64,000 nt of DNA. Source: an uncultured Pelagibacteraceae bacterium. Its GTDB lineage: Bacteria > Pseudomonadota > Alphaproteobacteria > Pelagibacterales > Pelagibacteraceae. The position numbers were made by a program, and so were the translations under genes. The stretch is taken from contig CACABZ010000001.1 of the NCBI GenBank assembly GCA_902530885.1, forward strand, positions 41,847 through 105,846, written 5' to 3'. This document shows, in pieces, positions 1,970 to 39,058 of the stretch. Position 1 is the first letter of the stretch. Each line of letters opens with the position of its first letter. The notes under the pieces were generated by a model. That model was not told where the DNA came from. It did no database searches and saw only the letters and a program-made list of their open reading frames with translations.

Positions 1970-2000
1970 TTTGTTTCCTCTTATTTTAATTTTTTTATCT

Positions 2001-2203: not shown

Positions 2204-2328
2204 AATATGGGTACCAAATAACTTAAAAACCATTATACAACAAGGGTTTTATAGTCGAGTGATAAAATAATTGCAATAAATGATTTATTTTTTATTAGAC
2301 GATTTATCTGTTAAAAAGGGCTATTTTT

Positions 2329-3069
2329 ATGGAAAAATCAACATTTTTAATTATTGGAAAACATGCGGTGGTAGAAGCGCTTAAAAATTCGAGAAGAAAA
2401 GTAACCAAAATATACATTAATGAGCATGTTCATAAGGAAATTAATAGATCTAACCAACCTAAAAATATTTTTCAAAAAACTAAGGTAATATTTAAAAGTA
2501 AAAAAGAACTAGATAATCTTTGTGGCAGAGACCAAATAAATCATCAAGGTATCATAGGTGAAGTTTTAGAATTAGATAATAATTCACTTAAAACAGATTT
2601 AGAATTTTTAAATAAAGAAAATATAAATTTTTTAGCACTAGAGAATATATCTGACCCAAGAAATCTTGGATCAATAATAAGATCAGCTGCATCCTTTAAT
2701 ATTGATGGAATAATAGTAAACGAAAGAAAATTTCCTAATAAAAGTAAATTACTTTACAAAGCTGCAAGCGGTGCCATGGAACATATCAATATTTATAGAT
2801 TATCTAATATTAAAGTAGCTTTTAATTTATTAAAAAAAAAAGGTTTTTGGATAAGCGCATTTAGCTCTCATGCAGAAAAGAGTTTTACAACGAACAATTG
2901 GAAAGGTAAGAATATATTATTATTTGGTTCGGAGGGAAAAGGTTTAAAAAAAAATACTAAAGAAAAAGCAGATTTTTATTATAAAATTAATATCAAAAAT
3001 ATTGAAAGCTTAAATGTTTCAAACTCAGTATCAATTGTTTGTCATTTTATTAATGAAAAAATAAGCTAA
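2329..3069 (+). CDS. rlmB: TrmH-family 23S rRNA (guanosine-2'-O-)-methyltransferase RlmB
   Basis: SpoU motifs: ALENISDPRNLGSIIRSAASF, LLFGSEGKGL, LNVSNSVSIVC. Confidence 0.9.
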   Translation: MEKSTFLIIGKHAVVEALKNSRRKVTKIYINEHVHKEINRSNQPKNIFQKTKVIFKSKKELDNLCGRDQINHQGIIGEVLELDNNSLKTDLEFLNKENINFLALENISDPRNLGSIIRSAASFNIDGIIVNERKFPNKSKLLYKAASGAMEHINIYRLSNIKVAFNLLKKKGFWISAFSSHAEKSFTTNNWKGKNILLFGSEGKGLKKNTKEKADFYYKINIKNIESLNVSNSVSIVCHFINEKIS

Positions 3070-3159
3070 AAAAATTTAAATTATGTATATTGGGTCGTAC
3101 TAATTTCATTTATATAAATTTCTTGAATTATAAATAAAATTATCATAAAAGTTTGTCAG

Positions 3160-3235
3160 GCCCTCATAGCTCAATTGGTAGAGCAATTGATTTGTAATCA
3201 ATAGGTTCGCGGTTCGAGTCCGTGTGAGGGCACCA
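3160..3235 (+). tRNA. tRNA-Thr (TGT anticodon)
   Basis: GCCCTCATAGCTCAATTGGTAGAGCAATTGATTTGTAATCAATAGGTTCGCGGTTCGAGTCCGTGTGAGGGCACCA. Confidence 0.95.
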
Positions 3236-3239
3236 ATTA

Positions 3240-4322
3240 CTAGGATTTAACAAATATTTCAAATAATTGTTTTTTAAAGTTTTGTTTTTCTAATAAAGTT
3301 TTTTTTTGATATCTTTTATATGATTTAATTTCTTTCTTATAATTTTTAAAAATCAATTCAATTAACTTTATAATCTTCTTTATATTTTCACTATTTTCAT
3401 TAAATTTAAATTTTTTTGGTATAGGTATATCATGTGAATTTTTAGCACTACCTTTTAGATTCGTAATAACGCAATTATTAAACAAAACGGCTTCTCTGGG
3501 CATTTTATCTTTACCTGGATGATAACCAAAATCTAAATAAATTTTTGTTCTTTTAAATATGTTTATAACTTGATTTGCGCTCATATTTTTAAGTGCAATA
3601 AATTTAAAATTTAAAACTTTTTTTATTTCAAAGATAAATTGGTTGCTTTTGTGAGAATAACATATTTCATTTTTTTTCTTCACTTTTTCTTTACACTTTT
3701 TTAAGACCACATCACTTTGATAATCATATAATTTTTTTATATTTTTAAATTTATCTTTAAAATAATCAAAAGCGTATTGCGACTGCATCAAATGTAAGTG
3801 TGCTTGATCTACCTCTTTTTGTTTATGATATTTTGTAAAACTATAAATATATTTTAAATAATCATGGTAAGTTAGTATCCCAAAGTAAAATTTAGTTATT
3901 TTATTAAATAGAGAGATAAAATTGTAAGGTATTTTAATTATAGATCTTAAGAATTTTGAATTGTCTTCTCTAAATTTAAAACCAAAAAAATTATCAACGC
4001 TTAACCACCAAATGATTTTATTAATATTTTTATACCTTAAGGCATATTTAAGATAATAATATTGCTCTGGTAATATCAGAATATTATTGTTGTTATCTTC
4101 AACAGATTTGGAATAATTGGTCTTATATTTTAAAAAATTTTTGTGAACAGGTTTTTTAGCTTCAATTGGCAAGTAAACCATATAAGCTTTTGCCTTGAAC
4201 ACTTTTTTTAAATGAAATGCTAGCTGATGTAAACATCCAGGCCCTCCTGTAAATGTGTTTGCAGGTGCTAAAATAAAAATTTTGGTTTTATTATTAATAA
4301 TTAATTTTTTGGCTTTAGACAT
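3240..4322 (-). CDS. Glycosyltransferase-like protein (surface polysaccharide island)
   Basis: 360 aa; C-terminal YLDFGYHPGKDKMPREAVLFNNCVITNLKGSAKN resembles the sugar-nucleotide-binding region of GT-B-like proteins; next to a GT2 gene. Confidence 0.55.
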   Translation of the reverse strand: MSKAKKLIINNKTKIFILAPANTFTGGPGCLHQLAFHLKKVFKAKAYMVYLPIEAKKPVHKNFLKYKTNYSKSVEDNNNNILILPEQYYYLKYALRYKNINKIIWWLSVDNFFGFKFREDNSKFLRSIIKIPYNFISLFNKITKFYFGILTYHDYLKYIYSFTKYHKQKEVDQAHLHLMQSQYAFDYFKDKFKNIKKLYDYQSDVVLKKCKEKVKKKNEICYSHKSNQFIFEIKKVLNFKFIALKNMSANQVINIFKRTKIYLDFGYHPGKDKMPREAVLFNNCVITNLKGSAKNSHDIPIPKKFKFNENSENIKKIIKLIELIFKNYKKEIKSYKRYQKKTLLEKQNFKKQLFEIFVKS

Positions 4323-4329
4323 TTATAAT

Positions 4330-5085
4330 TTATTTCCAGCCATAATTTTTTAAAGAATTTAAGCTAATTGATAGAACTGATTTTATATTTTGTAAAAAAT
4401 TTAAATTGTTTCCTTTTTTATTAATAATCCATAAATTTAACAAATTCTCTAATTTGCTTGAAGACCTATTCGATTTATTTATTCTATAATAAGTGAAAGT
4501 GTTATTAATTTTAAATGATGTAGTACCTTTTCTTAAAATATCACATTTAAAAAGAAAATCCTCGTGCTTATAATCTTTAAATTTAATTTCATCAATTATT
4601 TTTCTTTTAAGAATAATTGAGGATGTGCTCATAGTAGAATTTTTTAAAAAATTCTTTAAATCATAAAAAATAGGAAGACTGGTAGTTTTTATTTTATTAA
4701 AATTTTCATTAAAAAAAAACTTAAAATCTGTATAAGTAAAATCGTAATCATTTTTTAACATATTGGTAATTTGAATCTGCAATTTATCTTTAGGCCAAAA
4801 GTCATCTGAGTCTAAAAAGGCTATAAGTTCTGATGATGATTTTTTTATACCTAAGTTTCGACAAAAAGCCGGGCCACAATTTGACTCTAAATACGTAATA
4901 CTAATTTTTGGATCATTCTTAAATTTATTTAAAATTTCTTTTGAATTATCGTTAGAAAAATCGTCCACTAAATAAATCTTCCAGTTTTTATAAGTTTGTT
5001 TTAGAACGGAATCTAGACATTCATTTAGATATTTAGCTTTATTATAATTAGGAATTATTATATCTATAGGTGGTGAGTAAATCAT
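4330..5085 (-). CDS. Family 2 (GT-A) glycosyltransferase
   Basis: IDIIIPNYNKAKYLNECLDSVLKQTYKNWKIYLVDDFSNDNS...LIAFLDSDDFW. Confidence 0.9.
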   Translation of the reverse strand: MIYSPPIDIIIPNYNKAKYLNECLDSVLKQTYKNWKIYLVDDFSNDNSKEILNKFKNDPKISITYLESNCGPAFCRNLGIKKSSSELIAFLDSDDFWPKDKLQIQITNMLKNDYDFTYTDFKFFFNENFNKIKTTSLPIFYDLKNFLKNSTMSTSSIILKRKIIDEIKFKDYKHEDFLFKCDILRKGTTSFKINNTFTYYRINKSNRSSSKLENLLNLWIINKKGNNLNFLQNIKSVLSISLNSLKNYGWK

Positions 5086-5116
5086 TACAATTTGTGACTA
5101 ATTTATTTATTATAAC

Positions 5117-5401
5117 ATGAAATCTGAAGGCAGCTTAAAAATTTTTTTTGTTAAACTAATTTCAATAACATTTGCTATTATAGTAGTACTTAATGTGTTT
5201 TATAACATTTTTTTAGCTGATAAATTGAAGTTTATAAACGATTTGAGCAAAATGGATAAAAGTACTGCTGAGATGATTAAAAACAAAATAAGATCTGAGT
5301 TACGTAGCGGACTAGAGAAAGATAAAATTTTAACTGACGAGGACGCAAAATTAATCAAGCAATTCTTAGACAAGATTTCATCGGAACTAAGAGCAAGATA
5401 G
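5117..5401 (+). CDS. Small membrane-anchored hypothetical protein
   Basis: 94 aa ORF, N-terminal TM then charged helix; abuts next ORF. Confidence 0.6.
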   Translation: MKSEGSLKIFFVKLISITFAIIVVLNVFYNIFLADKLKFINDLSKMDKSTAEMIKNKIRSELRSGLEKDKILTDEDAKLIKQFLDKISSELRAR

Positions 5402-6961
5402 TTGAGAAATATCTTACAATTATTATATAGATATGAATCAAAACTTAAATATATTTTAGTTTTATTTTCTTTTTATTGTGCAATTATTGTAGGTCAATCA
5501 TGGGATGAAGGATATTACAAAATTATTGGAAAAATTAATTTAGATTATCTTTTATCTTTTGGATTTATTAATGAAGAATTTTACGGTAAGTATAGATATT
5601 CAACTATCTACTGGACTTTCTCAAGTTTATTAAGTCAATTTTTTCCTAGAGAATATAATGTAGAAGCTCATCATATAATTAATACAGTCTTTGGTTTATT
5701 CTCTATACTTGGGTTATACAAAATTGTTAAAAAACTTTTTAATAAAAATATCGGAAAAATTTCATGTGTTTTTTTGTTTCTTACTCCAACTTTTTTCGGA
5801 CATTTAGCTATTAATAGTAAAGATACGATAATGGCTTCAGCACATTTATGGATTTCCTATTATTTAATTAAATACATATTTAAGAATTTAAATTTTAAAA
5901 AAAGATTGTCTTTAATACTAAAAGTCTCTTTATTATCAGCTATTGGTACTGGGATACAGTTGGTTTTTTTAGGATCAATGCTGCCTTTTTTTTTATTTTT
6001 TTTAATTGCTTGTCTTTATCTCGGTAAGTTTAAAAAGGATCTTTATATAGATATTATATTATATCTTATTATTTTTTATCTGATTTTAATTCTTTTCTGG
6101 GTTGATGTGCATAGTAATATATTTGTTCTACCTTATAAATTTTTTTTAAATGCTATAAGTTTAGAGACTGGTTGGCCATTTAATCTGTATAATGGAAAAT
6201 ATTTTTTTTCAAATACCGCGCCGATCAATTATATTTTATTAAATTTATATTATAAACTACCTGAGTTTACCTTATACTTGTACCTTATAGCTATACCAAT
6301 TATGATTATTAAAAGAAATGAGTTAGAAAGCTATTTCAGTTTTTTTAAATTTAAAATATTTTTAGTAATTTCTATTTTAATTTACCCTAATATGATAATG
6401 CTATTTATACCTTATGCTATATATGACGGTCTTAGACTTTTTTTATGGTTTATTCCCTACCTGACAATAATTCCTGCAATATGTTTGTATTTTATTTACC
6501 AAAATCGAAAAAAAATCATTTTTAACATTCATATTTATCTTATTTCAATATTATTTTTGTATCATTTAGCTATATTTTTTTCTATTACACCATATCAATA
6601 TACGTATTTAAATATTTTAAGTGGAAAAAAAAACGAACAGTATAAAAAGTTTGAAAATGATTATTGGTCTACCAGCTTAAAAGAGCTTATATTAAATTCT
6701 GATTTAGATCAAAAAAAGACCATTAAATTTTCCTCTTGTGGGATAAACCACCGAATAGCTATCAAATACATGAGCAAAAAATATCCTAAAGCTCTATATA
6801 CTGAATTAAATAAAGCAGATTATCTTATATTAACTAACAGAACACTATATTCTGATAAAAAAAAAGAAGTTACAAATTGTTTTGATGAATTCACATTTAA
6901 GAATATAAGTGCAGTATCGAGAAACGGAAATATTTTATCAGCGATAAAAAAAATTGAATAA
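5402..6961 (+). CDS. Multi-pass membrane protein, GT39/ArnT-like glycosyltransferase candidate
   Basis: 519 aa, TTG start, many TM segments, LAINSKDTIMASAHLW loop; located in polysaccharide cluster. Confidence 0.6.
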   Translation: MRNILQLLYRYESKLKYILVLFSFYCAIIVGQSWDEGYYKIIGKINLDYLLSFGFINEEFYGKYRYSTIYWTFSSLLSQFFPREYNVEAHHIINTVFGLFSILGLYKIVKKLFNKNIGKISCVFLFLTPTFFGHLAINSKDTIMASAHLWISYYLIKYIFKNLNFKKRLSLILKVSLLSAIGTGIQLVFLGSMLPFFLFFLIACLYLGKFKKDLYIDIILYLIIFYLILILFWVDVHSNIFVLPYKFFLNAISLETGWPFNLYNGKYFFSNTAPINYILLNLYYKLPEFTLYLYLIAIPIMIIKRNELESYFSFFKFKIFLVISILIYPNMIMLFIPYAIYDGLRLFLWFIPYLTIIPAICLYFIYQNRKKIIFNIHIYLISILFLYHLAIFFSITPYQYTYLNILSGKKNEQYKKFENDYWSTSLKELILNSDLDQKKTIKFSSCGINHRIAIKYMSKKYPKALYTELNKADYLILTNRTLYSDKKKEVTNCFDEFTFKNISAVSRNGNILSAIKKIE

Positions 6962-8097
6962 TGAATATTAAAAGAATTAAAAATAAAAGACCGGACCTTT
7001 TAATTGTTGGCGCTGGTCCTGTTGGCTGTGTAATTGCAGAAAGAGCAGCAAAAATAAAAAAATGGACTTCATTAGTAATTGATAAAAGAAACCATATAGC
7101 CGGCAATTGTTACGATGAAGAAAATAAATGGGGAATTAGAGTGCATAAATATGGTCCTCATTACATGAGATTTAAAAAAAGAAAAATTTTTAATTACGTA
7201 AGTAAATTTACAAAATGGATTAAAGGCAATTATATAGTTAAGACAAATATCAAGGGCAAATTATATCCCATTCCAATAAATTTAACGACGATTGAAAAAT
7301 TTTTTAAAAAAAAATTTAAAAATCCAAATGAAGCAAAAAAATTTATCAATAATTTAAAAATCAAAAAGAAAAAAATTCAAAACAGTGAGGACTTCATTTT
7401 AGCTAATTTAGGTAAAGAAATTTATGAAAATTTTTACAAAAATTACACTGTTAAACAATGGGGCATACATCCAAAAAATTTAAATAAAAGCGTTGTTGGC
7501 AGATTGCCAATTAGATATAACCGCGATCCATATTATGTAAATCAAAAATTAAAAGTTATGCCCAAAAAAGGTTACACAAATTTATTTAAAAATATGTTAA
7601 GTGATCAAAAAATTGAAATTTGTTTGAACACTTCTTATGAATTTTTAAAAAAAAAAGTCCGTCCAAAAGTTGCAACAATATACACTGGTCCTCCAGATGT
7701 TTTTTTTAATTTTAAATACGGTAAGTTAGATTGGAGATCGCTTGAGTTTAAATTTAATACTTTGAAGAGAAATAAAATTCAGGAATGTGTTCAAATTAAT
7801 TTTCCCAATGACTATAAATATACCAGAAAAGTAGAAATAAAGCATGTTACAAAACAAAAATCAAAATATTCAACGGTCTCTTATGAGTTTCCAAAATCCT
7901 CCGGTGATCCATATTATCCAATCAATAACAAAAAAAACATTAAACTTTTTGCTAAATACAAATCTCTTATTAAAAAATTAGAAAAAAAAAATATCTATTT
8001 TGAAGGAAGACTGGCAAATTATAAATACCTTAATATGGATGAGGTTATTGAATGTGCTCTTAACCTTTTTAAGAAACTTAAACTAAAATATAAATAA
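6961..8097 (+). CDS. glf: UDP-galactopyranose mutase
   Basis: LLIVGAGPVGCVIAERAA (FAD), DKRNHIAGNCYDE, HKYGPHYMRF, KQWG, NYKYLNMDEVIECAL. Confidence 0.9.
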   Translation: MNIKRIKNKRPDLLIVGAGPVGCVIAERAAKIKKWTSLVIDKRNHIAGNCYDEENKWGIRVHKYGPHYMRFKKRKIFNYVSKFTKWIKGNYIVKTNIKGKLYPIPINLTTIEKFFKKKFKNPNEAKKFINNLKIKKKKIQNSEDFILANLGKEIYENFYKNYTVKQWGIHPKNLNKSVVGRLPIRYNRDPYYVNQKLKVMPKKGYTNLFKNMLSDQKIEICLNTSYEFLKKKVRPKVATIYTGPPDVFFNFKYGKLDWRSLEFKFNTLKRNKIQECVQINFPNDYKYTRKVEIKHVTKQKSKYSTVSYEFPKSSGDPYYPINNKKNIKLFAKYKSLIKKLEKKNIYFEGRLANYKYLNMDEVIECALNLFKKLKLKYK

Positions 8098-8099
8098 TT

Positions 8100-9080
8100 A
8101 TGAAAAAAATTTTAGTCACAGGTGGTGCAGGTTATATTGGAAGTCATATTGTCGAACAATTAGTAAAACTGAAAAAAAAAGTATTAATCATAGACAATCT
8201 ATCTACTGGTCACAAAAGACTTATCAACAAAAAAGCTTTATTTTTCAATTGTGATATTAAAAATTTCAAAAAATTAAATAAGATTATAAGTAAATATCAT
8301 TTTGACTCGATCTTTCATCTCGCTGCTTGCTTAAGTGTTGAAGAGGCTGAAAAAAAACCAGCCAAATATTATAACAATAATGTTATAGGTACAAAAAATA
8401 TAATAAATGTTTGTAAAAAAAACCAAATAAAAAATTTAATTTTCTCTTCAAGTTGCGCTGTTTATAAAGATAAAATTCAACAAGTAAATGAGAAGTCCAA
8501 ATTAAAACCTAAGGGTATATATGGTAATTCTAAATTTTTAGCAGAAAAGTTAATTATAAAGGAGCTTTACAAAACCAAAATAAAATACGCGATTTTAAGA
8601 TATTTTAACGTAGCCGGGGCAAGTGAAAGTGGAAAAATTGGTCAAATTACAAGGGGTGACCAACTGTTTAAAAATCTTTCATTGGCCTCCATAAAGAAGA
8701 AACCGAAAATTTATATTTATGGAAATAATTATAAAACGAAAGATAAAACCTGTGTGAGAGATTATATACACGTTTCAGATCTAGCAAAAATACATTTATT
8801 AACGTTATCTAGAATAAAAAAATTAAAAAAATCTATAATATTGAATTGTGGCTATGGAAAAGGGGTTTCTGTTTTAGAGGCTGTAAATGAATTCCAAAAT
8901 CAAACTAAAAAAAACATTCTTGTTAAATACAAAAAAAGAAGAAAAGGCGATATGGAAAAAATTATTTCTAATAATTCAAGAATAAAGAATTTATTAAAAT
9001 GGTCTCCACCTAAAAATCCTCTGAAACTTATAGTTAAAAGTTGTATAAATTGGGAAAAAAAAATCTCTAAACTATACTAA
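8100..9080 (+). CDS. galE: UDP-glucose 4-epimerase (SDR family)
   Basis: MKKILVTGGAGYIGSHIVEQL, SSSCAVYKD, YGNSKFLAEK, RDYIHVSDLA. Confidence 0.88.
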   Translation: MKKILVTGGAGYIGSHIVEQLVKLKKKVLIIDNLSTGHKRLINKKALFFNCDIKNFKKLNKIISKYHFDSIFHLAACLSVEEAEKKPAKYYNNNVIGTKNIINVCKKNQIKNLIFSSSCAVYKDKIQQVNEKSKLKPKGIYGNSKFLAEKLIIKELYKTKIKYAILRYFNVAGASESGKIGQITRGDQLFKNLSLASIKKKPKIYIYGNNYKTKDKTCVRDYIHVSDLAKIHLLTLSRIKKLKKSIILNCGYGKGVSVLEAVNEFQNQTKKNILVKYKKRRKGDMEKIISNNSRIKNLLKWSPPKNPLKLIVKSCINWEKKISKLY

Positions 9081-10434
9081 AAATATCTTCAATTTCTTTT
9101 AACTGATCTCTTTTCGCTAATAAAACAACCAAATCATCTTTCTCAAAAATAAAATCAGACCTTGGTATTATGACGGCGTCTTTCCTTACTATAGCCCCTA
9201 TTCTAATATCCTTTGGTAAATTGCTTTCTTGAATTTTCTTATTAAGTAGTTCGGATTTTTCTAATACTTTTGCTTCAATAAATTCATATTCACCATCTAA
9301 CAACGAATAAACAGTGCCTATTGTTCCCTTGTGCACGTGCTCCATAATTCTTGATACTGTAGTCATTCTTGGATCAACCAAATCATCAATATTTAAAGAG
9401 CTTTGCAATAAGCTATAATTTGATTTATTTACAATAGCAATTGTTCTCTTTTTTTGTCCTGATTTTTCGGCCAAAACACAAGCCATAATATTATTTTCAT
9501 CATCATTTGTTAAAGCCAATACTGTCTCGGACTCTTCTAAATTTGCCTCTTTTAAAATCTCTTCGTCCAAAGCATCTCCATTAATTACTATAGATGAAGA
9601 AAGTTCAGTTGCTATCTCCTCTGCTCGTAATTTATTTTTTTCAATAATTTTTATTCTTGCGCCTTCAAAATTTTCCTCTAACATTTTTGCTAAATGAAAT
9701 CCTATGTTACCTCCACCTATAATTAAAATTTTTTTAGATGTCTTTTCCTCATGACCAAAAGCTTTCAAAATTTGAGTTAATTGGTCACTACTTACTACAA
9801 CATAGACATTGTCGCCCTCTAATAATTTGTCGTCCTTTTTTAAAAATTGAAACTTACCTTTTCTTACTAACCCAACTATATTCGCTCTAAAATTTGGATA
9901 TTTTAATGTAAGGTTTTTAAGTGGTGTATTGATTATTGGGCAAGATTTTTCTATTGCAATCTCCAACATCTTCACTTTATTTTCTGCAAAGGGGACATTA
10001 TCTAATGCCCCTGGGGCTTCCAATCTTCTGTATAATGATTTGGCAACTTCTTTTTCAGGAGATATAATTACGTCGATTGGTATATTAGACTTGTTATAAA
10101 GTTTATTCCATTTTCCTTCTAGAAAATCCTTAGTCCTTATTCTAGCTATTTTTTTAGAAATATTAAATAATGAGCTAGCTAATTGACAAACAACCATGTT
10201 TGTTTCATCGTTACGGGTCACTGCGATTATCATATCAGTATTTTCTGCACCAGCATTTTCTAAGACTGATGGCAAAGATGCTCTTCCCACGATTCCCTTG
10301 ACATCTTGCGTGTCATTAATTTTTTTTATATCTTCTGAAGATTGATCAATAACTGTAATTGAGTGGCCTTGAGCAGCTAATTGTTTACTAATAGAGAAGC
10401 CAACTTTTCCAGCTCCACAAATAATAATATTCAT
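9067..10434 (-). CDS. trkA: Trk potassium uptake regulatory protein TrkA
   Basis: Two RCK_N domains (IIICGAGKVGFSISKQL; ILIIGGGNIGFHLAKML) with RCK_C repeats; 14-nt convergent overlap with galE. Confidence 0.93.
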   Translation of the reverse strand: MNIIICGAGKVGFSISKQLAAQGHSITVIDQSSEDIKKINDTQDVKGIVGRASLPSVLENAGAENTDMIIAVTRNDETNMVVCQLASSLFNISKKIARIRTKDFLEGKWNKLYNKSNIPIDVIISPEKEVAKSLYRRLEAPGALDNVPFAENKVKMLEIAIEKSCPIINTPLKNLTLKYPNFRANIVGLVRKGKFQFLKKDDKLLEGDNVYVVVSSDQLTQILKAFGHEEKTSKKILIIGGGNIGFHLAKMLEENFEGARIKIIEKNKLRAEEIATELSSSIVINGDALDEEILKEANLEESETVLALTNDDENNIMACVLAEKSGQKKRTIAIVNKSNYSLLQSSLNIDDLVDPRMTTVSRIMEHVHKGTIGTVYSLLDGEYEFIEAKVLEKSELLNKKIQESNLPKDIRIGAIVRKDAVIIPRSDFIFEKDDLVVLLAKRDQLKEIEDIFSIV

Positions 10435-10435
10435 T

Positions 10436-11806
10436 CTAATTGATACCTTTTATACCTAGTTCTTTTATTTTACGGTGCAAAGCTGAACGCTCCATACCGA
10501 TAAATTCTGCTGTTTTAGAGATATTGCCCTGATTTTTTTTTAATTGTGTTATTAAATATTCTTTTTCAAATTGCTTTCTAGCTTCCTTAAGTGTTGAAGA
10601 AAATGAACTCTTAATATTTAGATTACTTTCTGTATTACTTTTATTAATCAAAATATCATTAATTAATTTATTTATATTTTCTTTACTCTCGTTCGCGGAG
10701 AGTATTGTAACTCTTTCTATTAAATTTCTTAACTCTCTAACGTTTCCAGGCCAATTATAAGTGTACAATTCATCGTTTTTAGTATCAATATCAATTTCTT
10801 GAACACCATTTATCTCTGATAGTTTTTTTTTAAAATAATTAATTAATTCTGGAATATCTTCAGTTCTAGCAGTTAAATGATTTAGTTCGATCGGAACAAC
10901 ATTTAATCTATGATACAAATCTTCTCTAAAATTACCTTTTGAAATTTCGTCTAACAAATTTTTTGAAGTTGAAGATATAATTCTTATATTTACGTTTACA
11001 TCACGTTTTCCATTAATTCTTCTAAATTTTTGGTCAATTAAAACTCTTAATATATTAGCCTGAGTATCCATCGGCATTTCGCTTACTTCATCAATTAGTA
11101 ATGTTCCTTTATTAGCTCTATCTAACACTCCAAACGAAATAGTTCCATCTTCAAATTCTTGACCGAATAACTCTTTCTCATAAATATTTTCTTTTAAAGC
11201 AGCTGCATTTATAACAACAAAGGCCTCTTTCCGTCTGTGAGAATGTTTATGAATTTTTCTCGCAACCAGTTCTTTGCCAGATCCTGTAGGTCCAGTAATT
11301 AAAACTCTACTCTCAGTTCCCGAAAGTTTTTCTATGGTTTTTTTAATTTTTATAATAGATGGGCTGCTTCCTATAAGATCAAAAGAATGGAATAGTTTAT
11401 TTTCAATTAAGTCCTTTTCTTTTTTTAAATTTGCCGTTTCTAAAGCTCGATTAACATAATTTAAAAGTTTATCTGTTGAGAAAGATGCACCTTTCTCAAT
11501 AAATTCATATGCGCCTAATCTTATAGACTCTAAAGCTATTTTAACAGTTGCATGGCCAGATATCATAATAACTGGTACTGAGCTTTTCTTTTGCATAATT
11601 ATTTTTAATAAATCTATTCCGTCTTTGTCTGCTTTATCAAGTTTTATATCAATAATCGCTAGATCTGGAATTTTTTTTTTTATTTCTAATACTGCCTGAT
11701 CATAATTAGCAGCTGATCTTATATTAAAATTCTTTTCTTTAAGAATATTACAAATCAAATATCTTATATCTGGATTATCATCTATTACTAAAATTTCTTT
11801 ACTCAT
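10436..11806 (-). CDS. ntrX: NtrX-type sigma54-family response regulator
   Basis: Receiver domain, AAA+ (GPTGSGKELVARKIH, GTLLIDEVSEMP), Fis-type HTH; next to histidine kinase and trkA. Confidence 0.92.
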   Translation of the reverse strand: MSKEILVIDDNPDIRYLICNILKEKNFNIRSAANYDQAVLEIKKKIPDLAIIDIKLDKADKDGIDLLKIIMQKKSSVPVIMISGHATVKIALESIRLGAYEFIEKGASFSTDKLLNYVNRALETANLKKEKDLIENKLFHSFDLIGSSPSIIKIKKTIEKLSGTESRVLITGPTGSGKELVARKIHKHSHRRKEAFVVINAAALKENIYEKELFGQEFEDGTISFGVLDRANKGTLLIDEVSEMPMDTQANILRVLIDQKFRRINGKRDVNVNIRIISSTSKNLLDEISKGNFREDLYHRLNVVPIELNHLTARTEDIPELINYFKKKLSEINGVQEIDIDTKNDELYTYNWPGNVRELRNLIERVTILSANESKENINKLINDILINKSNTESNLNIKSSFSSTLKEARKQFEKEYLITQLKKNQGNISKTAEFIGMERSALHRKIKELGIKGIN

Positions 11807-29969: not shown

Positions 29970-31022
29970 TTGATGCACTCCGCTAAAAATCATAACGATA
30001 AACAACTGTCATTAATTGATGGTTCAAAATCCTCTTACACCAACAAAAAATATGACTTTGGAAATCGATTTAGTTTTATAGATTTATTTGCAGGTATTGG
30101 TGGTTTTAGATTAGCCTTAGAGGCTTTAGATATGGATTGTCTTTTTTCGTCTGAATGGGATTTAAATGCTAAAAAAACTTACCAAAAAAATTTTAGTGAG
30201 TTACCTCACGGAGATATTAATGATGTAAAAATAGAAACAATTCCAAAATTTGACATTCTTACAGCCGGTTTCCCTTGCCAACCATTTAGTAAAATAGGCA
30301 TGAGGCAGGGTTTTAAACACAAAACTCAAGGTAATTTATTTTTTAATATTGCAGAAATATTAAGAGAAAAAGAACCTATATCTTTTATATTAGAGAATGT
30401 TAGTGGACTATTAACACACAAATCTAAAGATAAAAAAACTTTAGACATAATGTTTTCAGAGTTAGAAAAAATTGGATATGAAATAAACTACAAACTAATA
30501 GACTCATCAAATTTTGGAGTTCCACAAATTAGAAGACGAATATTTATAGTTGGTTTTTTAAAAAAACATTTTCCAAAACAAACTAATTTTATCTTTCCCA
30601 AAGGAAATAAAATAAAAACTAATATTGGCAAATTTATTGAAACCCATAAAGATGGGTATTGTATTTCAAAAAAATTACAAAAAAGTTATATTTATAAATT
30701 CAAAGATAAATTTCCTGAAATTGTTAATAAAAAATCGAAGATTCAAGTTAAAACTTTAGTGAGCAGTTATCACAAAATTCAGAGAATCACAGGAACTTTT
30801 GTAGAAGATGGAAAAACTGGCTTAAGACTATTAAGTGAAAATGAATGCAAAGCTATAATGGGTTTTCCTAAGAAATTTATTTTTCCAGTTTCAAGAACAC
30901 AGATGTATAGACAATTAGGAAATGCTGTAGTTGTTCCGGTAGTAAAAGAAATTGCTAAAGAAGTTATTAAAATATTAGCAGAAAAAAAAAGTTATGACAA
31001 AAAACTCAAAAAGTCAGCTTGA
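29970..31022 (+). CDS. DNA (cytosine-5-)-methyltransferase
   Basis: FIDLFAGIGGFRLAL (motif I), GFPCQPFSKIG (motif IV), LENVSGLL (ENV, motif VI), RRRIFIVGF (motif VIII), QLGNAVVVPVV (motif X). Confidence 0.95.
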   Translation: MMHSAKNHNDKQLSLIDGSKSSYTNKKYDFGNRFSFIDLFAGIGGFRLALEALDMDCLFSSEWDLNAKKTYQKNFSELPHGDINDVKIETIPKFDILTAGFPCQPFSKIGMRQGFKHKTQGNLFFNIAEILREKEPISFILENVSGLLTHKSKDKKTLDIMFSELEKIGYEINYKLIDSSNFGVPQIRRRIFIVGFLKKHFPKQTNFIFPKGNKIKTNIGKFIETHKDGYCISKKLQKSYIYKFKDKFPEIVNKKSKIQVKTLVSSYHKIQRITGTFVEDGKTGLRLLSENECKAIMGFPKKFIFPVSRTQMYRQLGNAVVVPVVKEIAKEVIKILAEKKSYDKKLKKSA

Positions 31023-31563
31023 TTATATAAGAGACCATTTTAAAGCTAATCCAAATAAAAATTTAGAGACAACAAAAGTTAAAGGAATAATTGAAAATAA
31101 ATATCTATCTGAGACAGGTAAAAGATTTGAAGATTGTGATAGAGGTATAAGGAGCCTTTACCAAAAAGGTTGGCTAATAAAAGTTAGAAAAGGATGTTAC
31201 AAATATGATCCAAATCATAAGTCAGATGACAAAACCTTACACGATTTTTCCGACAAAATAAAAAAACAAATTCTAAATCGAGATAAATTTAAATGTGTTG
31301 TTTGTAAACTTGGAAAAAAAGAGGGTTTAGACTTACATATTGATCATATCAAACCAAGAGATAGAGGTGGAAAGTCTACATTAGAAAATGGTCAAACTTT
31401 ATGTTCAAGGTGTAATTTTTTAAAGAAAAATATGAGTATGAACTCTCTAGGAAAAAAAATCTTCCAAAATTTATTAAAACAATCTATTAAATCGAAAAAC
31501 AGGGAAATGATTAAAATTGCTAAAGAGTTTCTTAATTTATTTGAAAAATATAAATTAAATTAG
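30994..31563 (+). CDS. HNH endonuclease with N-terminal winged-helix-like region; likely partner of the methyltransferase
   Basis: CVVCKLGKKEGLDLHIDHIKPRDRGGKSTLENGQTLCSRCN (HNH with zinc-binding CxxC pairs); start overlaps methyltransferase by 29 nt. Confidence 0.88.
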   Translation: MTKNSKSQLDYIRDHFKANPNKNLETTKVKGIIENKYLSETGKRFEDCDRGIRSLYQKGWLIKVRKGCYKYDPNHKSDDKTLHDFSDKIKKQILNRDKFKCVVCKLGKKEGLDLHIDHIKPRDRGGKSTLENGQTLCSRCNFLKKNMSMNSLGKKIFQNLLKQSIKSKNREMIKIAKEFLNLFEKYKLN

Positions 31564-31564
31564 A

Positions 31565-33280
31565 TTATTTTTTCAATATTTTTGACACTCTTTCATTGTC
31601 TTTATCAGATTGCTCAGCAGCTTTTTTTCCTCCACCACTCCATTCATCTAGGTTTTGTTGAATAAAATTTTCCCTTCCAATTTCATCCCACTCTAATTCT
31701 TTATGATATTTAATATAAATTTGAAGTGGAAACTTTACTGCAGCACCACTTATAAAACCTTGTCCTTTTCCAAACGCTTTTAACCATTTAGCATCTTGTT
31801 CAGACATTTGCTCCATAACATTTCTAACCCAGTTTTGGTCTCTTGGATTAACTAACTTTAAAACTAAAAAACTATTACATTGTGCTAATGTGGTCTCATC
31901 TAATCTTCCCGGTCTTTGGGAAATTAATATAACTCCTGTTCCAAATTTTCTTCCCTCTGTTAAAAGTCTTCTTATAGTTAGTAATGACGGCGACTCAGAT
32001 TTTTCTTCACCTTTTGATGGAACAAAATTATGAGCTTCTTCTATAACAGCACTGAATGCAGGAACTCTTCCTTTTTGCATACTTGATCTATCGTCAAACA
32101 AGTCTTCCAGAATTATTGAAACAATTGTACTTTGTACTACTCTTTCATACCCACCAAGATATAAAATAGAAATTTGATTTTGTCGTATAAATTTACCTGG
32201 GTTATCCTTTGAGTCTGGCATATCTTCAAATTTTAAACCGTGTTTTTTCATATTATCTTGAAGCCTTCTATTTGTAGTTTCCATAATTTTTAATTTTTGG
32301 ATAATCAATCTTAACTTTCTTTGTATTGGTCCTTTAGAAGCTTCAGCTTTATTCCCTCCACTAGGGGGACTATTAGTCTGGATAAAATGAGCCAAAGTTT
32401 CAATGTGATTTAGTAAATTATTATCAGCTTGATTTAGTTTTGCAACAAAAGCACCATCCCGAATATATGACTCAAAAACTCCTACTTGAGCTTCGGTCAT
32501 TGTTAATCCTAATTTTGTGACTAATTCATAAATCGCATCGGCAACTTTATCAGGTTTAGCAAGAAGTTTCGGAGACATAAGTTTTACTTTTAATTCCTTA
32601 TTTTTTGAAACTTCTTTTAATTTATTAACATGTTTAGATAAACCCAGGTAATCTCCATGAGGATCAAAAATAATCATCGGCTGTCCATAATTTGCTAATC
32701 CTGCAATAATAGTTCTGCACGCAACAGTTTTTCCTCCTCCTGTTTGAGCAAGCACTGCTAGATGTCTCGCGCATAACGATTCTCCTTTGAAAAAAATTTT
32801 AACATCTTTTCTGTTAATGAGCTCTCCTATAGGAATAGGCTTATCTTTTTTTAAATTTCCTGATAAAAGTTTATTGAGTATAGTAACGTCTGGTGTCATT
32901 ACTTTATTTGCTGGTTTAACGGGATAAGTAAGAGGTTCTAAAATAATATCATCAGCGTCTGATTTTTTAGCATCGGTACACCCCATAATTTGTACCTCGG
33001 ATCTTAAATGTTCTGATCCACTCATCCCTATAGTTTCGTTCATATCAAGATTTTCTCTTGCTAATTCTGCAGCAAATTCTGATGGAAATGTCGGATTTGT
33101 TCTTTCCATCCAAACTATTCTTCCCCATACCAAAACATCTTTGGTTAAAGGAGTTGATGATTTTGTAATAACGATATCTCCTACACTAGCACTCAAGTCG
33201 CTTATTACAAACTCATAGGTGTCAGTAGATGTCGTTCCAACGACTACACCTATTTCTTTCCATTTCTTTTCTATGCTCAT
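31565..33280 (-). CDS. HerA-like/DUF87 ATPase (FtsK-HerA superfamily)
   Basis: N-terminal barrel-like region, Walker A LAQTGGGKTVACRTI, FDPHGDYLGL, Walker B AVIEEAHNFVP, ISQRPGRLDETTLAQCN. Confidence 0.9.
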   Translation of the reverse strand: MSIEKKWKEIGVVVGTTSTDTYEFVISDLSASVGDIVITKSSTPLTKDVLVWGRIVWMERTNPTFPSEFAAELARENLDMNETIGMSGSEHLRSEVQIMGCTDAKKSDADDIILEPLTYPVKPANKVMTPDVTILNKLLSGNLKKDKPIPIGELINRKDVKIFFKGESLCARHLAVLAQTGGGKTVACRTIIAGLANYGQPMIIFDPHGDYLGLSKHVNKLKEVSKNKELKVKLMSPKLLAKPDKVADAIYELVTKLGLTMTEAQVGVFESYIRDGAFVAKLNQADNNLLNHIETLAHFIQTNSPPSGGNKAEASKGPIQRKLRLIIQKLKIMETTNRRLQDNMKKHGLKFEDMPDSKDNPGKFIRQNQISILYLGGYERVVQSTIVSIILEDLFDDRSSMQKGRVPAFSAVIEEAHNFVPSKGEEKSESPSLLTIRRLLTEGRKFGTGVILISQRPGRLDETTLAQCNSFLVLKLVNPRDQNWVRNVMEQMSEQDAKWLKAFGKGQGFISGAAVKFPLQIYIKYHKELEWDEIGRENFIQQNLDEWSGGGKKAAEQSDKDNERVSKILKK

Positions 33281-34716
33281 GGTCTATTCCATCCTTTTCT
33301 ACCGCTAAACAAGGATTTCAATGCCATGCTAACATATTCTTTATTTCCGGTCTCTATAGTTTTTTTCAATATTAATCTCTGATATTCATTTCTCATTGAG
33401 TTTCTCATCCAACTTGGAACTTTAGTCATTTTATCAACAATATTTAATCCAAGAGGAAAACAGTATTCAGGTAAAAGTTTGGTTGAATGATAAGTAAAAT
33501 CAATATCATCGTCATAACTTTTTAAGATATTTAATGTTTCAATCTTAATTGGTCTTTTAAGCTCTGAAACTTTTAAAAAGGTAATGTAGGGCTCAGGCAT
33601 AATCTTATGTAAAGGCATGCATGATCTAGGCCACTTTTGTTCTGGGTTTTTAACAATTTGGATTGGTTGAATATATTCTCCCTCATCTAATATTAAGTCA
33701 AAAAGGACTGCATCTGAAATTGGTCTTTGAGTAAACTCTTTAAATAATTGATCATGGACAGTTCTATCTCCCGCTTTTCTTATTTTCCATGAATTAGTGA
33801 GATGAGCTAATCTTGGATCATCACTATAACCTGGTCTTGCATTAGGCTGGCTTTTAATATGATATAATTCTCCCAACACCGCTCTTGTAACTGGACCAGG
33901 GCTTGAAAGACCACCAGATCTTTCAACTACGCCATAAACTGGAATCTTAGATTTTTTAATTTGATTTGTTATTTCAACATAAAGAGGAATGAAATATCTA
34001 TCCTCCTTTTTTAAAGATTTATTATTTTGATGAGTTAATATTTTCTTACAAAATTCTTCTTTGTAAGGGGGCATTTCATTTTCTACACCTCTGTCTCTAC
34101 TATTTTTTCTTTCCTCTGTTGCAAGATGGTACATGGTAGCTTCATAAACAATAGGACCATGAAGATATATTATGTCATTTGTAGTTGGTTTTGCTTTCCA
34201 CTTACCTTTAGCTGCAATTTGTTTCACCACTTCTGCGGTTTCCATAATCATTCTGGTTCCTGTAAGCATTTTGTTATACTCTAACATAAAGGTATCATCT
34301 TCTTGTTCATAATGACTTGTTGCTTTATCAATTAAGTTAGCAGTTAGAGTTGTGCTTTCATCACTATCTTCTCTTTGGTCACTTTTTTCGCCAGGTCTTA
34401 CTTTATATACACCAACTCTTAGACCCAAAGCAGCTGCCCCTGTTACCGAAAGAGATAGTTGACCACCATCAATATTATAAATATTTTTTTTTCCCTTAAA
34501 ATTCCAAAACTCTTTTGGTCTATACTTGAGTTTTTTTATCAAGTTTCTTTCTTGAAGCTTTTCTCTTATAAAAATTGCTAGCTCTTTAATTTTTTTCTTA
34601 TATTTAAAATGATCAGTTCCGGTTGCAGCTGCCAAAATTAACATATCTGTAAAAAAAGGTTTCTGAAGTCTGTCATCAATTTTTTTTTCCAAATCTTTAG
34701 AATTAATTTTAGTCAT
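33277..34716 (-). CDS. NurA-domain nuclease-like protein
   Basis: NIDGGQLSLSVTGAAALGLRVGVY (motif I-like Asp), IIYLHGPIVYE, KSKIPVYGVVERSGG, C-terminal EYCFPLGLNIVDKM; 4-nt overlap with downstream HerA gene. Confidence 0.72.
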   Translation of the reverse strand: MTKINSKDLEKKIDDRLQKPFFTDMLILAAATGTDHFKYKKKIKELAIFIREKLQERNLIKKLKYRPKEFWNFKGKKNIYNIDGGQLSLSVTGAAALGLRVGVYKVRPGEKSDQREDSDESTTLTANLIDKATSHYEQEDDTFMLEYNKMLTGTRMIMETAEVVKQIAAKGKWKAKPTTNDIIYLHGPIVYEATMYHLATEERKNSRDRGVENEMPPYKEEFCKKILTHQNNKSLKKEDRYFIPLYVEITNQIKKSKIPVYGVVERSGGLSSPGPVTRAVLGELYHIKSQPNARPGYSDDPRLAHLTNSWKIRKAGDRTVHDQLFKEFTQRPISDAVLFDLILDEGEYIQPIQIVKNPEQKWPRSCMPLHKIMPEPYITFLKVSELKRPIKIETLNILKSYDDDIDFTYHSTKLLPEYCFPLGLNIVDKMTKVPSWMRNSMRNEYQRLILKKTIETGNKEYVSMALKSLFSGRKGWNRP

Positions 34717-34957
34717 CTATATCAATTTCTTTAAGGTACTGTTCTACTGCAGCAATATTATTATTTAATACAGGGTTTATTGATTTTCCTTTTTGGGATC
34801 GTCTTTGCTGTCTACCTTTCATTTCTACAAATATTTCTTTTAAGATTTTTTTATCTTTCACTTTAAATGCTAATTGTGCTGATTTTAATAGATCATTTGC
34901 TCCATCCTTAAGACTAAAAGAATGGCTAGCATCAATTATGTATCTTCCTTGTGTCAT
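34709..34957 (-). CDS. Small hypothetical protein of the HerA-NurA operon
   Basis: 82 aa ORF overlapping neighbours at both ends. Confidence 0.6.
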   Translation of the reverse strand: MTQGRYIIDASHSFSLKDGANDLLKSAQLAFKVKDKKILKEIFVEMKGRQQRRSQKGKSINPVLNNNIAAVEQYLKEIDIDD

Positions 34958-35307
34958 TATTTACTATCCTGTTTCCAAATTTGTTTGGTTAATTCGAGAA
35001 ATTTAATTTCTCTATCTTTAACTATTAAATCAGCTGCAGCCAATCTTCTCATTAATTCCATTGAGATTTTTTGTAACTCTATATCTTGAATAGTGTTAAT
35101 GAAATATATACTCGCTGTATCAAAATCATCTCTAAATTTGTTATGAATTTGATCTAATTCTTTATCGATATCAGTTGAAAAATTTTTTTCAGAAATTAAT
35201 TTTTCAATAAACTCTCTCTCTTTTGAATGCAATTCATTATCAGAGATAGATAATAAAATTAAAAGACTAATTACAGCTTCTTCTTGTAGTTTATTGCTCA
35301 TATTCAA
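34957..35307 (-). CDS. TerB-like helical protein
   Basis: 116 aa; LLILLSISDNELHSKEREFIEKLISEKNFS...RRLAAADLIVKDREIKFLELTKQIW resembles TerB acidic/helical repeats. Confidence 0.55.
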   Translation of the reverse strand: MNMSNKLQEEAVISLLILLSISDNELHSKEREFIEKLISEKNFSTDIDKELDQIHNKFRDDFDTASIYFINTIQDIELQKISMELMRRLAAADLIVKDREIKFLELTKQIWKQDSK

Positions 35308-36823
35308 AAAGGTATTTTATCAAATGGAAAATTGCAAGCGTGTCTTTAGAGCAATATTCCAACAAAAGTTTTTTTTGGTTTTCTTTTTCTTCTTTTGTCT
35401 CATTAATATCTGTATTTTTAAACCATGCTAACTGAGCATCGGTACCACCAGAAATATTACCTTCATCCTCATAATTAATTTTACAATTTGGTATTGCTTT
35501 TACAATTGATTTAATTCCCCAATCACCATTCATAATAGGAGAATAAAAATTATGTTTAGCTATAATTGCGCTGTCTTCAATTCTTTTAATAATATTGTCA
35601 ATTTGAGAAGTTAGGCTTTTGCAATTGTCTTTGGTCTTAAGTTTTTCTAAAATTTTAATTTCTGTCCCTTTTGCGTTATGTGCGAATATAGTTCCTTTAT
35701 CACCTACTGCCTGAATAAGAGTTTCAATAAATTGTCTTTCTATATCTTGATCATTAAATTTTAAAAAAAACTTTCCTTTATCTACTGGTTTGTCTTTAGA
35801 TATCCATTTATGAACTGACCACTGGAAGGGTAATGGATAATACGGTGTAGTTCCTTTAATTATTGGAACTACTTGGCCTACAGTTTCAAAATCCATAAAA
35901 TATAAAGGAAATTTAAAGTTTTTTAATACATTTTTTAAGTTTGAATTAAACCAGGGTTTCTTTTTTTTGTGAGCTGATTGTATTATTTGGTGATATCCAG
36001 GAGCATAATCTTTTCGATCTTTAAAAAATCTTGTCGGAACTTTTTGCAAGTCATTTGTTTTTTTTTCAGTCATATAATCAATTAAATCTTGTGATTTTCC
36101 TATATAAGGTAATATTGTGAATGGAGTAATATTCTTTTCGTTAGAGGATGTATCACACCTGTCAAAATAATCACAAGAATAGGGTTTGTTGCAATGAATA
36201 CCGGTAGAAATTTTAGGGCAAATGGAGTCTTTACTTGTAATTGGTAACAGTTCTTTAATATTATTTGGGATTTCGTTCTCATTTAATCTTTCTGTAAGAT
36301 CATTTTCATCATTAATTAATCCTTGATAATCTCCTATTTTTTTTAAAGTAAATTTTGTATTAACATGTACTAATTTTATTTTTTTTAGTTTTTTTCCTAA
36401 TTTGTTTAAGCTTTTTCTAACCACATAAGATTGAATTGAAATGTCTGGTAAATGCTCGGGTTTTAACTTAGTGGATGATTTCGCTTCAAGTAAAATCCAA
36501 CCATCTGGTTCTCTTATTAAAACATCTGTTCTAACCAAAGTATTAGAAAATTCAAAAGCGGCTTCAAAAATGATGTCAATGTTTTCAGAATTAATTGCTT
36601 TAGTGGTTTTTTCAACTGGTTGCCTAAATTCTCCAGTTAAATCTAAAATATTTATTTCTTTTTTAGAGTAGTTTTTAATTACTTGACTTCCAAAACGATT
36701 ACCACCGTAAAAAATTGCCTTTTCTTTTTTTAAAGGTTGATGAACATCAAACCATAATTTTTTGTGACATTGAAGACCGCTTGTAATTTTAGTCTTAGTT
36801 AAAAAATCATATTTTCTAGGCAT
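35291..36823 (-). CDS. DUF2779-type protein: Cas4-like PD-(D/E)XK nuclease + DEDD/RNase H-like exonuclease
   Basis: DVLIREPDGWILLEAKSSTK (D...ExK), cysteine cluster CPKISTGIHCNKPYSCDYFDRC, YFMDFETVGQVVPIIKGTTPYYPLPFQWSVH, FAHNAKGTEIKIL, YCSKDTLAIFHLI. Confidence 0.82.
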   Translation of the reverse strand: MPRKYDFLTKTKITSGLQCHKKLWFDVHQPLKKEKAIFYGGNRFGSQVIKNYSKKEINILDLTGEFRQPVEKTTKAINSENIDIIFEAAFEFSNTLVRTDVLIREPDGWILLEAKSSTKLKPEHLPDISIQSYVVRKSLNKLGKKLKKIKLVHVNTKFTLKKIGDYQGLINDENDLTERLNENEIPNNIKELLPITSKDSICPKISTGIHCNKPYSCDYFDRCDTSSNEKNITPFTILPYIGKSQDLIDYMTEKKTNDLQKVPTRFFKDRKDYAPGYHQIIQSAHKKKKPWFNSNLKNVLKNFKFPLYFMDFETVGQVVPIIKGTTPYYPLPFQWSVHKWISKDKPVDKGKFFLKFNDQDIERQFIETLIQAVGDKGTIFAHNAKGTEIKILEKLKTKDNCKSLTSQIDNIIKRIEDSAIIAKHNFYSPIMNGDWGIKSIVKAIPNCKINYEDEGNISGGTDAQLAWFKNTDINETKEEKENQKKLLLEYCSKDTLAIFHLIKYLFEYEQ

Positions 36824-36999
36824 TAGTATAATTTAGAAACGTATCTTGCTAGGATTGGTTTAATAGAACTTTCACTCATTATCTCAATTCTACCGTCATC
36901 ATAATAAAAGTATACCCTATAAAAATGACGTTTTTCATCATAATCATAAACTTCTTCAACTCTTATTTCTTTAATTTTTTCAAGTTTTCTATTTTTCAT
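36823..36999 (-). CDS. Micro-ORF (58 aa), TAATG-coupled to the DUF2779 gene; not in supplied ORF track
   Basis: Reverse-strand translation MKNRKLEKIKEIRVEEVYDYDEKRHFYRVYFYYDDGRIEIMSESSIKPILARYVSKLY*; stop TAA overlaps ATG of next gene; start overlaps upstream ORF by 11 nt. Confidence 0.65.
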   Translation of the reverse strand: MKNRKLEKIKEIRVEEVYDYDEKRHFYRVYFYYDDGRIEIMSESSIKPILARYVSKLY

Positions 37000-37207
37000 T
37001 TTTTCCTTTAATTAACTTTGTTATTTTGTTTTCTTTATCAAATACTTTATTTTCTACTCTATCAACTCTTTCGGAAAGCATCTCTATTATCATTTTTAAT
37101 TTTCTGATTTCATCTTTTGATTTGATATAATCTGTTATAAAAAGATCTCCCTCAGATAAGCTTTTCTTTCTTAATAAATAAAAGTCTGTTTTATTTTTTT
37201 TTTTCAT
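36989..37207 (-). CDS. Small coiled-coil protein, first gene of the nuclease/HerA operon (ATG at 37207 preferred over the GTG at 37237)
   Basis: MKKKNKTDFYLLRKKSLSEGDLFITDYIKSKDEIRKLKMIIEMLSERVDRVENKVFDKENKITKLIKGKNEK; the GTG start would sit inside a strong hairpin. Confidence 0.55.
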   Translation of the reverse strand: MKKKNKTDFYLLRKKSLSEGDLFITDYIKSKDEIRKLKMIIEMLSERVDRVENKVFDKENKITKLIKGKNEK

Positions 37208-37636: not shown

Positions 37637-39058
37637 TTAAATATTTGAGAAAGATAAAATAACTAAAAGTAAATATGTTATGGATCCGTAAAGTCTAGAT
37701 CTTTTATTGATCTTTACTGCTCTGCTATAATTTTTATTATTTATTCTACTAAAATAGATGGTTAAGAATGTTGGTATACAACAAAAGAGATAAGACAACA
37801 AAATATATCTGTCCATGCTTGTAAGGTAAGATAACTTCGGTAAATCATCATTAAAGACAAAATTATAAGCAATTAATGCTAATAAGGCTACAATTGAAGT
37901 TGTCAATCTAGACTCAACTTGATTTGGAGGTATCCATAAAACTGACCAAGCAATAGATAAAATCAGAAAAACAGGGATTAAAATTTTAAATATAAAATAG
38001 TTAGTATTTCTTTTTATAAAAATATTAATTTCTACAGTATCATTTTTAAAATTTGATATTTTATTTGAGTCAAATGGGTCTAGTGCTGTTTCAGATAAAA
38101 TTTTATTATTAATTGCATAATCTATGATCTTCCATTCTTTTAAAAGATTGTTTAATTTGTAATCTTCAATATTTTTGTAAACTGCTGGTTTTATATCAAA
38201 CAACCCAATATACGGTTTTGGTTGGTTATTATCCTCATTTAATTCTAAACCGATTGGGTGTTCTAAAACAATCTTTAAGTTTTGAACATCAAATGGAAAT
38301 TTTTTAAAATCAAAATTTGCTTTAATAACATGTAAACCCTCAAATGTTGAATTTGTGAAAGTTTTATCAAATTTTTCATAATAAACTTGATCAAAATAAC
38401 TAAAATTTTTATCTATATCGAATTTAATATGATCGATAAAAATAGTTTCATTAGTTACAGGTGAAAAAATTTTAGAGTTTTCTGTGAGTTCAGCGATATT
38501 ACATATCGTTAAATTTCCAATTTCTCTACCAGCCTCAATCCAGTCAGGTCTTTCGTGAGATACTCTAAATGAATAATCGATACCAAATTCACCAGACTTA
38601 GTGTCTATACTTTCAATGCTATTAAGTAAAAAATAATCGAGATCAAACTGATAGTAGTCGTATTTATTCGCATTTATTTTAAAAGACTGTTTATTTTGTT
38701 TAATATTTAAACTATTTTTTTTTAGTAAAGAGCTTATTTCATCATCATTTAAATTCGACAGGTCGTTATTATTGATCGATTGAATATGTTTTCCAGGTAC
38801 TAACCTTTCTTCAAAAAATGAGATTCTTAAAATTGGATATTTATTTTCATCTCTTTCGAGTTCTAATTTATTTGTTTCATAGTTAAATTTTTTAAGAAAA
38901 TAAATACCTGTATCGTATTTTGGTTGTTGACCATCACTTACTATACCATTTGCAGGGGTTGGTATGGACAACACTTTTTCTTCAAAATTCTTACACTCAT
39001 CTGCATAAACTTTAAAAAAAATAAAAAAGAAGTATAATACAAACAATTTTAATTTCAT
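37637..39058 (-). CDS. Pentameric ligand-gated ion channel (Cys-loop-receptor superfamily) with N-terminal extension
   Basis: Signal peptide; KFPFDVQNLKIVLEHP (FPFDxQ pro-loop); TM region LSIAWSVLWIPPNQVESRLTTSIVALLALIAYNFVFNDDLPKLSYLTSMDRYILLSYLF. Confidence 0.88.
   Translation of the reverse strand: MKLKLFVLYFFFIFFKVYADECKNFEEKVLSIPTPANGIVSDGQQPKYDTGIYFLKKFNYETNKLELERDENKYPILRISFFEERLVPGKHIQSINNNDLSNLNDDEISSLLKKNSLNIKQNKQSFKINANKYDYYQFDLDYFLLNSIESIDTKSGEFGIDYSFRVSHERPDWIEAGREIGNLTICNIAELTENSKIFSPVTNETIFIDHIKFDIDKNFSYFDQVYYEKFDKTFTNSTFEGLHVIKANFDFKKFPFDVQNLKIVLEHPIGLELNEDNNQPKPYIGLFDIKPAVYKNIEDYKLNNLLKEWKIIDYAINNKILSETALDPFDSNKISNFKNDTVEINIFIKRNTNYFIFKILIPVFLILSIAWSVLWIPPNQVESRLTTSIVALLALIAYNFVFNDDLPKLSYLTSMDRYILLSYLFCCIPTFLTIYFSRINNKNYSRAVKINKRSRLYGSITYLLLVILSFSNI

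Follow-up and report, generated by a model that had tools for sequence, protein, structure and literature searches.

Do seven overlapping genes on the minus strand (31565-37207) of a 64,000-nucleotide (nt) stretch of DNA from an uncultured Pelagibacteraceae bacterium (contig CACABZ010000001.1, positions 41,847 to 105,846; hereafter the window) specify a single DNA-degrading machine? A first-pass annotation had read them in this way, as one composite of a HerA-like motor, three nuclease activities and several small subunits. In relatives, the seven genes form two blocks and not one conserved seven-gene machine. The first is a portable cassette, encoding a TerB-like protein, a protein of 82 amino acids (aa), the nuclease NurA and HerA, which lies tail to tail with genes for a C5-cytosine DNA methyltransferase (Dcm) and an HNH endonuclease. 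The second, comprising DUF2779 and two small open reading frames (ORFs), is resident at a hotspot at gltX. The segment 29970-35307 is probably a restriction-modification-like anti-invader system, in which Dcm would mark self and HerA-NurA would degrade unmarked DNA.

A methyltransferase accompanies one type of HerA-NurA pair

The HerA-NurA pairs of SAR11 separate with high support into two types, A and B, in trees of both HerA and NurA (the NurA tree is unrooted); the pair in the window belongs to type A. In a systematic tblastn table, Dcm lies near HerA-NurA in all seven type A loci, whereas it is found in none of the 14 type B loci. The convergent Dcm and HNH genes, both left out of the first-pass annotation, are part of a conserved arrangement, although HNH is accessory (three of the seven type A loci). 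TerB is likewise present in three of the seven, and DUF2779 only in the window. Four further loci from Pelagibacteraceae share the convergent HerA-Dcm order. Two of these (L032 and L034, the latter being one locus with L065) have the order TerB-like protein, 274-aa protein, NurA and HerA, then convergent HNH and Dcm, and are flanked by FAD oxidoreductase and alanine dehydrogenase genes, at another point of the chromosome than in the window. In L033 and L035, HerA-NurA faces another type of Dcm, without HNH. Two IMG/VR contigs from bacteria outside SAR11 show NurA-HerA adjoining AIPR and Dcm (L090, cluster span 1092-9912; L091, 4141-10709), and L090 also carries Vsr and an AspBHI/Mrr-like modified-DNA endonuclease.

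The distribution of the cassette is patchy, with NurA present in 15 of 397 family genomes. An alignment search for NurA across 385 genomes of the class gave a match only in the window's own genome, and the Pfam NurA family (PF09376) was not found in the 120 phylum genomes searched. A scan of the genome collection found NurA in Pelagibacteraceae only; the peptide patterns used were strict, which may have left bacteria at large under-represented. A patchy cassette in a swappable slot supports the defence-type setting that had been suggested for these genes.

The idea that all SAR11 HerA-NurA pairs constitute one system was rejected, type B being a separate clade and a locus without Dcm. Type B pairs (L008, L010, L036-L039, L041, L059-L064) belong to a conserved multi-gene Pelagibacteraceae island at recurrent chromosomal places. 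Their neighbours are RmuC, exonuclease I (ExoI) in most loci, and an AAA_15 ATPase with a PD-(D/E)XK protein in several; the island also encodes a sigma-like 300-aa protein, a small basic protein and small membrane/CxxC proteins. Two IMG/VR operons (L102, 6037-11729; L103, 5970-11696) were rejected as examples of the same system. They encode a distant HerA (28% identical) with a Ser/Thr kinase and a 380-aa partner that has no Pfam match.

Identity of the encoded proteins

The identification of the motor as a HerA-like ATPase is strong. The protein matches Pfam DUF87 (1.7e-23) and PADLOC HerA (1e-49), and its Walker A (TGGGKT), Walker B (EEAHNF) and HGDYLG motifs are intact and invariant in the alignment of homologues. 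Among solved structures its closest relative is a NurA-partnered archaeal HerA, that of Thermococcus kodakarensis (9x1l; 2.9e-42 in a sequence comparison with the PDB). The NCBIfam repair HerA model scores 167.5 bits against it, compared with 100.7 and 92.7 bits for the anti-phage HerA models.

The window NurA has no match to PF09376, and comparison of its sequence with the PDB, phages and plasmids found nothing. An AlphaFold model based on four related sequences was unusable (predicted local distance difference test, pLDDT, 36), and 15 sequences were used instead (pLDDT 70.7; predicted template modelling score, pTM, 0.76). The ten best Foldseek PDB matches of this model are all NurA (2ygk, E 1.5e-6), and the T. 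kodakarensis HerA-NurA complex is among its fold matches (1.4e-5). Over the query, the template modelling (TM) scores of these matches reach only 0.28-0.39, which leaves the details uncertain although the family of the fold is clear. A homologue beside HerA in L090 provides a bridge, matching the window protein by blastp (2e-71) and Pfam NurA with 41.2 bits (1.8e-10). The residues D83 (DGG), E159, D181, H186 (LHGP), E265, D335, E393 and D428 are invariant in the SAR11 and non-SAR11 proteins. The predicted fold and the bridging homologue thus agree, independently of each other, in placing the nuclease in the NurA family, as the first-pass annotation had proposed.

Of the small cassette proteins, that of 116 aa had been called TerB-like. 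Homologues that are 60% identical occupy the equivalent position in L032 and in L034. The PF05099 match is below the cut-off (21.1 against 24.4 bits) and the homologues score 17 bits. The 82-aa protein is 52% identical to the C-terminus of the L032 protein. Its full-length relatives are of 262-274 aa and have N-terminal zinc fingers of the DksA/TraR and topoisomerase types, detected by Pfam in the L032 and L033 proteins; the window protein is without them. No credible family match in Pfam, PADLOC or NCBIfam was obtained for the NurA ORF, the 82-aa protein or the two small proteins that open the gene set. PADLOC contains no family to which either NurA or the 82-aa protein could be matched, in accord with the earlier impression that this is not a catalogued, named system.

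Facing HerA, Dcm matches Pfam DNA_methylase (2.1e-92) and M.HhaI (1.5e-53). The HNH protein matches Pfam HNH (8.4e-12), has a weak likeness to PADLOC REase_II (6.3e-9) and possibly has a winged-helix N-terminal region; its gene ends 1 nt from the HerA stop codon. The HNH orthologues in L032 and L034 are 88% identical to it, and among 297 family genomes orthologues of at least 88% identity are confined to two carriers of type A NurA, G000 and G753.

The DUF2779 block and the gltX hotspot

The DUF2779 protein had been described as a Cas4-like and DEDD nuclease, a description borne out by its motifs (D100, E113-x-K115 and conserved Cys in the N-terminal, Cas4-like part; DFE...YCSKD) and by the classification of the family in the exonuclease clade with an associated, PD-(D/E)XK-like DUF83 domain (PMC3985635). 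It matches PF11074 (3.1e-23), the PADLOC Cas4 model itself giving just E 0.099, and a profile search against the PDB found nothing. In other genomes this block is accompanied at the gltX hotspot by different neighbours. In G062 (L028) it lies upstream of a complete MZA system (MzaB, C, D and E by PADLOC) that faces Dcm (776-10971), in G560 (L094) it is found with Dcm and a convergent gene pair encoding proteins of 262 aa (no Pfam match) and 99 aa, and in G532 (L093) nothing separates it from gltX. The inference is that DUF2779 is a resident nuclease block, downstream of which other systems insert. In G063, DUF2779 is at another place, with DUF2130. Conversely, the cassette is found without DUF2779 as TerB-82aa-NurA-HerA in L032 and L034 and as 82aa-NurA-HerA in L033. 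The seven genes are consequently not conserved together in other genomes, and the proposal of one machine with three nucleases is not supported, since DUF2779 and the cassette each occur without the other.

The two small proteins go with the DUF2779 block. Homologues (61 aa) of the 72-aa protein precede DUF2779 in L028, L093 and L094. Those of the 58-aa protein precede DUF2779 in L028 (10620-10796) and L029 (8901-9062) and ExoI in L064 (2522-2692), which suggests that this family is a small partner common to different exonuclease-type genes. A fused analogue of DUF2779 is seen in L092, where small ORFs and a 1048-aa protein with PD-(D/E)XK, RNase_H_2 and helicase parts (COG2251-like) come after a Dcm-HNH pair.

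All seven minus-strand frames are open as first described, with overlaps of 11, 1, 17, 1, 8 and 4 nt. Homologues of each product are present in other genomes, which argues that no frame is open by chance. For the first ORF, the ATG at 37207 is preferred over the GTG at 37237 because the L028 homologue starts there. Promoter and terminator scans did no better than shuffles and the boundary of the transcription unit could not, therefore, be set; the DUF2779 block may be co-transcribed with the cassette in the window genome. A homologue of prokaryotic pentameric ligand-gated ion channels adjoins the island (37637-39058, minus strand; Pfam Neur_chan_memb 5e-8, FPFD motif).

Table 1. Genes of the island, in window coordinates
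Feature	Position	Strand	Basis
C5-cytosine DNA methyltransferase (Dcm/M.HhaI type), convergent with HerA	29970..31022	+	Pfam DNA_methylase, M.HhaI
HNH endonuclease, 189 aa, with small N-terminal region	30994..31563	+	Pfam HNH, orthologues in L032 and L034
HerA-type hexameric DNA-translocating ATPase, 571 aa	31565..33280	-	Pfam DUF87, PADLOC HerA, motifs
Nuclease of the NurA family with an RNase H-like fold, 479 aa	33277..34716	-	AlphaFold/Foldseek, homologue in L090, alignment
82-aa protein, C-terminal domain of a larger zinc-ribbon protein	34709..34957	-	Identity to L032 protein, alignment
TerB-like protein, 116 aa (sub-threshold)	34957..35307	-	PF05099, homologues in L032 and L034
DUF2779 protein, N-terminal Cas4-like PD-(D/E)XK and C-terminal DEDD 3'-5' exonuclease-like domains	35291..36823	-	PF11074, motif alignment
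58-aa small protein of the DUF2779 block	36823..36999	-	Homologues in L028, L029 and L064
72-aa small protein, first gene of the DUF2779 block	36989..37207	-	Homologues in L028, L093 and L094

Proposed mechanism and competing explanations

Because a C5 methyltransferase is the conserved partner of HerA-NurA, the likely mechanism shifts from a composite DNA-degrading machine to modification-gated restriction. We infer both the gating by methylation and the function in defence. Dcm would, in common with its family, methylate cytosines in host DNA. On unmethylated invader DNA, a HerA hexamer on a NurA dimer would be permitted to move along the duplex and to thread it into NurA for cleavage of both strands. 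The T. kodakarensis HerA-NurA complex carries out ATP-driven cleavage of both strands of double-stranded DNA, for which NurA Asp49 is essential (PMC12977600), and that of Deinococcus radiodurans translocates the duplex into the NurA dimer (PMC9960219). The TerB-like and zinc-ribbon/82-aa proteins are presumed adaptors or sensors, and HNH, where present, might speculatively make the first cut at unmethylated sites, providing a DNA end for HerA-NurA. DUF2779 and its two small ORFs would be a separate, co-oriented nuclease block of the hotspot.

It is also conceivable, although we consider it unlikely, that HerA-NurA is a DNA-end resection pair serving repair, as in archaea and Deinococcus (PMC12977600; PMC9960219), and that Dcm-HNH works apart from it, as an ordinary type II restriction-modification pair that shares the island. 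A number of observations count against a single methylation-gated system, some of them in favour of this alternative. Between the window genome and G753, which is from another genus, Dcm and HNH are 91% and 88% identical, far above HerA (66%), NurA (52%), TerB (60%) and gltX (64%). This discordance implies that Dcm-HNH moved more recently than the rest and hence that the two arms are partly modular. Judged by these sequences, the HerA-NurA and Dcm-HNH halves do not always travel together, and related convergent Dcm and HNH genes are found without HerA in L092 (8777-14288; G652). Moreover, L032 and L034 are near-copies at one site, which leaves about six independent cases among the type A loci, and the grouping of L090 and L091 with SAR11 type A in the HerA tree is weak (62/31). 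However, the sparse occurrence of NurA and the swappable location of the cassette are unlike housekeeping repair, a Dcm of another type stands beside HerA even where HNH is missing (L033, L035, L090, L091), and it is the type B loci, with RmuC and mostly ExoI, that have no Dcm.

Two further explanations appear less probable still. That all seven genes, DUF2779 included, form a composite machine with three nuclease activities is very doubtful. The co-oriented, overlapping frames (17 nt at the DUF2779/TerB junction) make co-transcription likely in the window genome, and in L034 TerB is immediately preceded by another Cas4-like nuclease, but the same site holds DUF2779 with MZA, with Dcm and a gene pair, or alone, and the cassette core dispenses with it in three loci. 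We see equally little likelihood that HerA-NurA is a capture system acting on plasmids or conjugating DNA with no methylation self mark, Dcm protecting, for example, against HNH only. HerA/FtsK capture systems have been proposed (PMC10853773; PMC12839542) and type B pairs do lack Dcm; yet Dcm is constant in type A loci, and no ORC/CDC6, STAND, restriction endonuclease (REase) or DndFGH partners were seen in the window with Pfam and PADLOC.

Should the methylation-gated reading of the cassette be correct, a motor-nuclease of the archaeal repair type would have been recruited as the restriction arm of methylation-based immunity, HerA-NurA being known mainly as an archaeal repair complex. SAR11, very abundant bacteria with very small genomes, would gain one more defence system, and the gltX neighbourhood would be a hotspot where such systems are exchanged.

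Relationship to known systems

A search of the open-access literature found no work that combines HerA, NurA and a methyltransferase in one defence system, although a description elsewhere is possible, and surveys of HerA capture and of bacteriophage exclusion (BREX) make no mention of NurA. The HerA-DUF4297/SIR2 and DndFGH/HerA-capture systems likewise use a HerA-family ATPase as the motor of a nuclease-containing defence complex, but with DUF4297, SIR2 or an REase as nuclease partner, whereas the partner in the window has a predicted NurA fold; no DUF4297 or SIR2 partner was found at the locus with Pfam, PADLOC or NCBIfam. The archaeal and Deinococcus HerA-NurA complexes (T. kodakarensis 9x1l/9x1m; D. 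radiodurans) have the same motor and nuclease and give the best HerA sequence and NurA fold matches. Those are, however, repair genes, whereas the window pair is patchily distributed, belongs to an island that can be swapped, and has a methyltransferase, HNH, a TerB-like and a zinc-ribbon protein as partners.

In G062, the gltX slot that holds the cassette in the window is taken by MZA (MORC/MutL-Z1-DUF4420-AIPR, with Dcm), which has the DUF2779 block upstream of it and a Dcm convergent with it; the AIPR of MZA (MzaE) is also what joins NurA-HerA-Dcm in L090 and L091. All four MZA genes are present in G062, but none of MORC/MutL ATPase, Z1, DUF4420 or AIPR was found among the window neighbours with Pfam and PADLOC, and HerA-NurA would there take the motor and nuclease roles.

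The self mark tied to TdpAB is phosphorothioate DNA modification. TdpAB(C) of Thermus (PDB 8wfd, 8wet) is the nearest precedent for the window system, as it likewise combines a HerA-like translocase, a NurA-fold nuclease and a DNA-modification enzyme. Among the matches of the NurA model, TdpB ranks first after the canonical NurA structures (8wfd_G, E 2e-3), and TdpA is a weak match of the window HerA (1.9e-4). The relation in sequence is distant. The modification also differs, the window having a C5 methyltransferase; no TdpC-like phosphorothioation gene was seen among the ORFs adjoining the cassette, where Dcm and HNH stand instead. We tentatively suggest, with somewhat less confidence than in the restriction-modification-like reading of the window itself, that these loci represent an unnamed class, found in SAR11 and unrelated bacteria, in which HerA-NurA would be the restriction arm, C5-cytosine methylation the self mark, and the sensors (TerB-like/zinc-ribbon or AIPR) interchangeable: a methylation counterpart of TdpAB that swaps with MZA at a shared hotspot.

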